Below, piece after piece: positions 4,298 through 8,234 of a DNA stretch of 42,140 bases; positions within the stretch are counted from its first letter, which is position 1; each line of letters starts with the position of its first letter. The DNA lies in the NCBI GenBank assembly GCA_002737275.1, contig NSIG01000042.1:1-42140 (forward strand), given 5' to 3'. The position numbers were made by a program, and so were the translations under genes. The notes under the pieces are model-generated. The model saw only the letters and a list, made by a program, of their open reading frames with translations, searched no databases and had not been told where the DNA came from. The DNA comes from Opitutia bacterium. GTDB lineage: Bacteria; Verrucomicrobiota; Verrucomicrobiia; Opitutales; Opitutaceae.

Positions 4298-4675
4298 ATG
4301 ATTACCGATAAAATTAAAGAGCTCGAGGCGACCAAAGCTAAAGTCGCTTCGTTGGAAAAATCGATCGCAAGCCAGCTGGATAAAGAGTTGTCCGAGCTGC
4401 CGGCGAAATATGGTTTCGAGTCCGCTCAAGCGTTCATCAAAGCGGTCGCCGCGGCGACGGGCGGTCGGAAGAAAAAACGTGGCGGCAAAGCGGCGAAATC
4501 CGCAGGCGGCAAGCGGCGCAAACGCGCCAAGATCACCGACGAAATCCGCGCCGAACTTAAGAACCTCGCCGAGGCCGGCAAATCTGGGTCGGAGATCGCG
4601 GCGGCTTTGGGTATTTCGTTACCGAGCGTGCAGAATATCAAGAAGGCACTCGGATTGGTGAAGTCGCGGAGCTAA
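4298..4675 (+). CDS. Putative nucleoid-associated / DNA-binding protein: coiled coil, Lys/Arg-rich linker, C-terminal HTH
   Basis: 125 aa; N-terminal heptad-rich region, GGRKKKRGGKAAKSAGGKRRKRAKITDEIR linker, AGKSGSEIAAALGISLPSVQNIKKALG resolvase-like HTH. Confidence 0.65.
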   Translation: MITDKIKELEATKAKVASLEKSIASQLDKELSELPAKYGFESAQAFIKAVAAATGGRKKKRGGKAAKSAGGKRRKRAKITDEIRAELKNLAEAGKSGSEIAAALGISLPSVQNIKKALGLVKSRS

Positions 4676-7142: not shown

Positions 7143-8234
7143 ATGTTATTTAATTTTCTCCAGCGTTACAGTGTCGGCTTATGCTCCATGGGGCAGCGGG
7201 CGATGGGTCGGGGGCGAACGTGGTTACTGGCGCGGCCCGCCTTGGCGGCGTGGATTTTTCCGGCCGACGATGATTCGCCGGAGGCGCGGTTTCGGGAGTT
7301 CAACGGCTGGTATTTCGCCAATTTTCATGAGCAGGAAAAGATGTTGGCCGACCGGCCGCGGATGAATTTCTACCACGCGGCGATCGCCCGGCACATCCAA
7401 CCGGGTGACCGCGTGATCGACTTGGGGACGGGCACGGGGATTTTAGCCGCGTTTGCCGCACGGCGTGGGGCGGCTCACGTCTACGCGGTGGATCACTCGG
7501 AGATTTTGCGTCACGCGAAGACCTTGGCCGTGGAGAATGGGATTCAAAACGTGGAGTTCATCGCGCTGCACAGCTCGAAGTTGGAGACGACGGAGAAGGT
7601 CGACGTGATTTTGCATGAGCAGATGGGTGACTGCCTTTTCGACGAAGCGATGGTGGCGAATGTTTGCGACCTGCGCGACCGCTTGCTGAAGCCCGGCGGG
7701 CTGATCTTACCGAGCTGTTTTGATCTCTACTGCGAGCCGGTGAAATTGAACGACACCCGGCACGTGCCCTTTATTTGGGAACTGGATGTCCACGGATTCG
7801 ACTATTCGTCGTTGGGTCGGCAACGGCCGCAAGAGCCGGGCTATTATCACCTGCGGAGCTGCGACCCGAACTACGTGGAGCACTTTCTCGGCGAGCCTGA
7901 GCCGGTGCTCTCAGTGGATCTGCACACGGTGCGGGATGCGGATGTCCCGCTGGAATTGAACTTCACGCGCACGGTCGTGAATGCCGGCCGGCTCGACGGC
8001 TACGCGGTCTATTTTCGGGCCCGGGTGGATGCAGATCTGAGTCTGAGTTCGGGCCCGCATGATGCGAAGCGGGCTCCGCATTGGGGGTATCGGATCCTCC
8101 GCACCGACCGAGATGATTTCGCGGTGGGTGACGTGATCGAGATTCGGCTCAAGGTCGGGCGTTGGCCGGAACTGGATACTTGGCGTTGGAGCCAGGTGAA
8201 ACGCGCTGCGGTCGTGAGCTCGGCGGCGGAGTGA
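7143..8234 (+). CDS. Protein arginine N-methyltransferase (PRMT)-like SAM-dependent methyltransferase
   Basis: VIDLGTGTGILAAFAARRGAAHVYAVDHS (SAM motifs), LHEQMGDCLFDEAM (double-E loop spacing), APHWGYRIL (THW-loop-like); exact start uncertain. Confidence 0.75.
   Translation: MLFNFLQRYSVGLCSMGQRAMGRGRTWLLARPALAAWIFPADDDSPEARFREFNGWYFANFHEQEKMLADRPRMNFYHAAIARHIQPGDRVIDLGTGTGILAAFAARRGAAHVYAVDHSEILRHAKTLAVENGIQNVEFIALHSSKLETTEKVDVILHEQMGDCLFDEAMVANVCDLRDRLLKPGGLILPSCFDLYCEPVKLNDTRHVPFIWELDVHGFDYSSLGRQRPQEPGYYHLRSCDPNYVEHFLGEPEPVLSVDLHTVRDADVPLELNFTRTVVNAGRLDGYAVYFRARVDADLSLSSGPHDAKRAPHWGYRILRTDRDDFAVGDVIEIRLKVGRWPELDTWRWSQVKRAAVVSSAAE

Follow-up and report, generated by a model that had tools for sequence, protein, structure and literature searches.

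Omega-arginine methylation by protein arginine methyltransferases (PRMTs) is usually regarded as a eukaryotic speciality. We asked whether an open reading frame in a stretch of Opitutaceae DNA (42,140 nucleotides, referred to here in its entirety as the window) encodes such an enzyme and, if so, what this enzyme might methylate. The ORF (7143-8234, Table 1) starts with an ATG at position 7143, in agreement with the orthologues, whose alignment begins in most cases at this methionine or close to it, and ends with a stop codon at 8232-8234. Its translation contains VIDLGTGTGILAAFAARRGA, an exact match to the SAM motif quoted in the sequence-only reading, LHEQMGDCLFDEAM, which holds E159 and E168 in E-x8-E spacing, and APHWGYRIL, which includes H313 and W314; the coordinates, the reading frame and the motifs from which that reading had proposed a bacterial PRMT were all exact. 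The helix that precedes the PRMT core has a net charge of +2 to +6 and a median hydrophobic moment of 0.58 among 30 orthologues. The helix is kept in the orthologues, though single proteins are only borderline when compared with shuffled sequences (median p 0.06). This helix might bind membranes or nucleic acids.

Table 1. Positions in the window of the PRMT-family gene and of the elements of its product
Feature	Positions	Strand	Basis
PRMT-family methyltransferase gene, 363 aa	7143..8234	+	ORF and translation; phmmer against PDB PRMTs; genus orthologues; dN/dS
N-terminal basic amphipathic helix, residues 2-29, extension before the PRMT core	7146..7229	+	AF2 helix, pLDDT ~72-77
N54...F58, NxxxF at the site where type I PRMTs have YFxxY	7302..7316	+	Alignment
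Rossmann-fold SAM-binding domain, ~residues 60-190	7320..7712	+	Pfam Methyltransf_31/25; AF2 secondary structure, mostly at pLDDT > 90
M67, D70, R73 = PRMT1 M48, D51, R54	7341..7361	+	Alignment; role of M48 from PMC8619983
Motif I VIDLGTGTG within the Rossmann-fold domain	7413-7439	+	
Double-E loop H158 E159 Q160 M G D C L F D E168 A M170	7614..7652	+	Alignments
C-terminal beta-barrel domain, ~residues 192-354	7716..8204	+	PRMT_C PF22528; AF2 strands; Foldseek, 335 columns to PRMT2
Probable dimerisation arm, ~residues 205-245, W212 and G-x-D (218-220)	7755..7877	+	Alignment to PRMT1 arm
HW of the THW loop, H313 W314 = PRMT1 H293 W294, PHWGYR here	8079..8084	+	Alignments

When the protein was used as a single-sequence phmmer query against the PDB, the best match was PRMT2 (5g02, E 6.2e-28, residues 62-342), followed by more than 50 other PRMT chains, including Arabidopsis PRMT4.2, PRMT1, PRMT8, PRMT3, PRMT6 and CARM1. 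In Pfam, PRMT_C (PF22528) scored 28.6 bits over residues 211-316 against a cut-off of 27, and several orthologues scored under this cut-off; the PRMT5 domain (PF05185) had no Pfam match in the genome or in the 363-aa protein. Rossmann and barrel strands were predicted in an AF2 model (pLDDT 89.6, pTM 0.80) that was built from 43 sequences and may be steered by the SEWLG-type PRMT relatives included in its alignment (A1). The best Foldseek match of this model was 5fub (E 1.2e-25, TM 0.71/0.76), and the 50 PDB fold matches listed were all eukaryotic PRMTs. The PRMT beta-barrel, to which the sequence-only reading had tied its assignment, is therefore present in the prediction. The arm region could be aligned to the PRMT1 arm (IHWWENVYGFDMS), with W212, G218 and D220 common to eukaryotic PRMTs, and the AF2 monomer model places short helices at 222-227 and 232-235 within it.

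General methyltransferase domains were also matched on approximately residues 81-193 (Methyltransf_31, E 3.9e-12). One rival reading is that the protein is a class I methyltransferase of a generic or PrmA-like kind (PrmA methylates ribosomal protein L11) in which the PRMT motifs are coincidental; Pfam PrmA (E 1.8e-10) and Methyltransf_31 (3.9e-12) both match on residues 81-191, and two plasmid homologues are annotated as L11 methyltransferases. However, the PrmA match is a local one, limited to residues 81-163 and thus to the SAM-binding Rossmann domain that both proteins have in common, whereas among the matches listed the whole-length sequence and fold matches were all PRMTs. PrmA itself is not known to have the PRMT barrel, the double-E or the THW. 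We rejected a PrmA identity, which appears hardly credible. A role in defence was also rejected, as only the methyltransferase part (residues 80-194) matches PADLOC mad2 of the MADS system (E 7.6e-17), which we took as general kinship; Mad2 itself may hold a PRMT-like domain. The PRMT likeness of the ORF is far beyond that of a chance motif, and we are almost certain that its product belongs to the PRMT superfamily.

We then considered the active site. Residue invariance was scored in a 46-row PRMT alignment, and equivalences to PRMT1 were counted without gaps, starting at M48 and at the double-E loop (PRMT1 numbers absent from PMC8619983 are our own count). Both double-E glutamates, E159 and E168, were invariant in 30/30 orthologues and in wider PRMT alignments, as the sequence-only reading had expected, and their spacing is that of E144 and E153 in PRMT1, which neutralise the guanidinium (PMC8619983). 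In the 46-row alignment D70, R73 and W314 were invariant and M67 was present in 45/46 rows, while M170 was conserved in the family and nearly invariant. M67 and M170 align with Met48 and Met155 of PRMT1, which direct asymmetric dimethylation; M48F permits symmetric dimethylation (PMC8619983, where the roles of the double-E and the THW in PRMTs are also described). H313 and W314 were found in all aligned Opitutaceae orthologues, and H313 was conserved in alignment A1. The ORF is under purifying selection, with dN/dS of 0.08-0.25 against members of the genus and the family. Substitutions in the double-E loop and in YFxxY could mean that the protein is a catalytically dead PRMT fold that serves as a scaffold, but this is very unlikely, given the low dN/dS and the fact that R73, the SAM motif and the two glutamates do not vary among members from three phyla. 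Sequence comparison, the predicted fold, residue conservation and the trees thus all support PRMT homology with all core catalytic positions.

These substitutions nevertheless set the protein apart from the motifs YFxxY, SExMGxxLxxExM and THWxQ, which characterize type I or all PRMTs (PMC12925635). The loop HEQMGDCLFDEAM keeps the E, M, G, L, E and M of the second motif and has lost the S, PHWGYR has lost the T and Q of the third, and YFxxY is replaced by NxxxF (N54 in 20/20 and F58 in 19/20 sequences of the clade described below, Tyr in most other PRMTs). The sequence-only reading had spoken of an intact double-E loop and a THW-like motif; both glutamates and the HW are indeed kept, but the loop reads HEQMGD where SEWMGY is expected, including a change of Y to D, and P replaces the T of THW. 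The same changes recur in a set of bacterial proteins that we call the HEQ type, a name coined here from the loop HEQ[MI]GD. These proteins formed one group in two trees (support 100/99 and 100/100). H158 (for Ser), Q160 (for Trp) and D163 are invariant in the HEQ clade and absent or rare elsewhere, and the positions fixed or nearly fixed in it in the 46-row alignment are N54, F58, H118, H158, Q160, D163, E198, R276 and R320. The clade comprises the Opitutaceae proteins together with sequences of Verrucomicrobiales and Akkermansiaceae (L172, L193, L067), of Litoribacter ruber from Bacteroidota (L174) and of Acidimicrobiia (L173, L176, L178, L180). The four Acidimicrobiia members have Ser for the THW-loop His (TSWGN), the same change as in PRMT1 H293S, which alone leaves MMA and ADMA formation unaffected (PMC8619983). 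Judged from sequence, the ORF represents a divergent bacterial PRMT subfamily that is probably active and is not a canonical type I PRMT. An open-access literature search for bacterial PRMTs returned no paper describing the HEQ group, which is weak evidence of its novelty.

What reaction would such a protein carry out? From the alignments and the predicted model, the product of the ORF is probably an arginine (guanidino-N) methyltransferase that uses SAM and belongs to a distinct, HEQ-type bacterial PRMT subfamily. SAM would bind in the Rossmann domain and the substrate arginine would enter between this domain and the barrel. By analogy with the family, E159 and E168 would hold and orient the guanidinium, D70/H313 and M67/M170 would shape the pocket, and the methyl group would be passed to an omega nitrogen of arginine. 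The protein would act as a ring dimer joined through the arms. Since neither of the methionines that direct the product has been lost, asymmetric dimethylarginine is the likeliest end product and is favoured over the symmetric form; we make this assignment tentatively, with close to an even chance of its being right, and an enzyme that only monomethylates is possible.

Because the barrel and the arm region are kept, we place the substrate arginine in a protein, with good though not high confidence. An enzyme of PRMT fold could instead methylate a small molecule, such as a free guanidino compound, or some other target that is not a protein arginine, in which case H158, Q160, D163 and E198 would reflect the new substrate. 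The radical, fixed changes next to E159 and within the barrel (H158, Q160, D163, E198, R276, R320), the loss of YFxxY, the patchy distribution (44/119 good genomes of the family) and the lack of association with RRM tails described below are all consistent with such a target. On the other hand, the barrel and arm region that form the cleft are kept, as are M67, M170, H313 and W314, and no biosynthetic gene cluster was found around the gene in the neighbourhoods examined. We therefore consider a small-molecule substrate unlikely, and a protein arginine remains our preferred target.

To look for a candidate protein, we turned to the genome that contains the window. It encodes an RRM protein (L266, G000:C11:12500-13700) with a GAR-type tail, GGRGFGGGGGRGFGGG, given also as EEGGGRGFGGGGGRGFGGGGGGRGFGGG, a long Gly/Arg sequence with GGRGFGGG repeats. 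This tail resembles the Gly/Arg-rich substrates of the PRMT1 type. RRM proteins occur in 142/150 genomes of the family and Gly/Arg tails are common there, and when 20 RRM tails from gene-bearing genomes were compared with 20 from genomes that lack the gene, no difference was detected (p 0.27-0.70). As such tails are just as common where the gene is absent, the L266 tail is a candidate only, and a rather improbable one. Identification of an RGG/RRM substrate by phylogenetic profile was likewise given up, in view of this wide occurrence of RRM proteins and of the lack of a difference among the 40 tails compared.

The neighbourhood of the gene did not name a substrate either. Upstream, xseB and dxs lie on the minus strand and point away from the gene; downstream, a TrmO-like gene converges on it and is followed by FKBP and S4-domain genes. 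The gene stands alone, and the flanking order is held within the genus only. Beyond the genus no neighbour recurred within ~8 kb, except an S4-domain gene at two loci. The operon or neighbour route to the substrate was therefore abandoned, as the neighbours are conserved only within the genus and none of them indicates what is methylated. Near dxs, positions 4298-4675 of the window encode a protein of 125 aa in which a linker rich in Arg, Lys and Gly (GGRKKKRGG...GGKRRKRAK) precedes a helix-turn-helix domain; it is conceivable that this protein is a target of arginine methylation.

Next, we determined how widely the gene is distributed. It is present in 11/13 genomes of the genus, and relatives occur in 50/150 genomes of the family, 42 with the window type (at least 54% identity) and 8 with only a distant type (~30-35%). 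In a sample of the class, matches were found in 16/286 genomes, 12 of the 16 belonging to the same family. Single-contig genomes (G003, G004, G020, G064, G075) also carry the gene, which means that it is not an assembly contamination. A search of phage records for homologues returned nothing, and four plasmid records gave weak matches.

The sequence-only reading held that bona fide PRMTs are uncommon in bacteria. We found them to be commoner than this: clear, canonical PRMTs with SEWLG/SEWMG and THW are present in further genomes of the family to which the window belongs, and also in Planctomycetota, Myxococcota, Acidobacteriota and Poribacteria. Besides the HEQ clade there are two bacterial clades in which SEWLG/SEWMG and THW are retained, and one of these is represented in family genomes that do not have the window type. 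There are thus at least three bacterial PRMT lineages, and since canonical PRMTs occur in other bacteria, including the same family, bacterial PRMTs are patchy rather than exceptional. A canonical PRMT of ~311 aa with SEWLG and THW (L035-L042; L156-L160) never co-occurs with the HEQ type in the family sample. Proteins of ~690 aa of the Kiritimatiellae type (L077, L201) have two PRMT-like halves, with two PRMT_C matches in one ORF, and recall PRMT7/PRMT9. Many virus-labelled metagenome contigs (L084-L145, 72 loci) carry PRMT-like or related methyltransferases.

Could the HEQ gene have been captured from a eukaryotic type I PRMT and not be an old bacterial lineage? The eukaryotic type I proteins clustered in the tree with one Polyangiaceae sequence (98/96), and the HEQ clade stood apart from this group (support 100/100 and 98/96); the eukaryotic references were the aligned parts of five animal and plant sequences only. 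The Polyangiaceae protein (L184) carries SEPWGFFLFHERM as well as ETHWSQ; it clusters with PRMT4.2 of plants within the eukaryotic clade and is possibly the product of a CARM1-like gene transferred into myxobacteria. With this row counted among the eukaryotes, an AU test did not reject HEQ and eukaryotes together as one side of a branch (p 0.40), and placement of HEQ beside a single eukaryotic paralogue was disfavoured but not firmly rejected (p 0.06-0.09); an AU p of 0.0015 against HEQ with eukaryotes was dropped because the CARM1-like Polyangiaceae row inside the eukaryotic group had been left out. The AU values thus leave room for capture, but the well-supported separation of the HEQ clade, its span of three bacterial phyla and the diversity of bacterial PRMT lineages argue against it, and we regard capture as quite unlikely. 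It is also unlikely that the gene was recently acquired from any of the eukaryotic paralogues sampled.

If the HEQ clade is instead a native bacterial PRMT subfamily of Verrucomicrobiota, Acidimicrobiia and Bacteroidota, its rebuilt active-site rim (H158, Q160, D163, N54, F58, E198) could give a substrate or product unseen in eukaryotic PRMTs, and these bacteria would possess their own system for methylating protein arginines. We advance this broader proposal as possible but on balance doubtful. If free-living bacteria have a PRMT subfamily of their own that is conserved and under selection and combines the double-E core with a different rim, the existence of a bacterial arginine methylome would become open to direct test, and the finding would bear on the origin of eukaryotic PRMTs.

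Finally, we compared the HEQ type with known systems. A review of the field (PMC10117894) covers M. tuberculosis Rv1988, a bacterial arginine methyltransferase whose target is H3R42 of the host, and a pair of predicted PRMTs from Legionella pneumophila Paris. They are bacterial and have proposed roles in protein arginine methylation, as we suggest for the HEQ type, but they are treated as host-directed pathogen factors, whereas the ORF has no sign of secretion or of a host. The canonical SEWLG-type PRMTs (Pelagicoccus mobilis L156, Mariniblastus L159, Planctomycetota L160, Myxococcota L158, family L035-L042) have the PRMT fold and core residues in common with the ORF, L035 being 35% identical to it. 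Unlike the HEQ type, they retain the second Tyr of YFxxY as well as SEWLG and THW, and they form a separate well-supported clade. With the eukaryotic type I PRMTs (PRMT2, PRMT1, PRMT6, PRMT3, CARM1 and Arabidopsis PRMT4.2) the ORF shares the Rossmann domain, barrel and arm region, E-x8-E and the equivalents of M48, D51, R54, M155, H293 and W294, at ~22-28% identity in structural alignments. It differs from them in having HEQMGD for SEWMGY, PHW for THW and NxxxF for YFxxY, and its sole extension relative to these enzymes is the short N-terminal basic helix.
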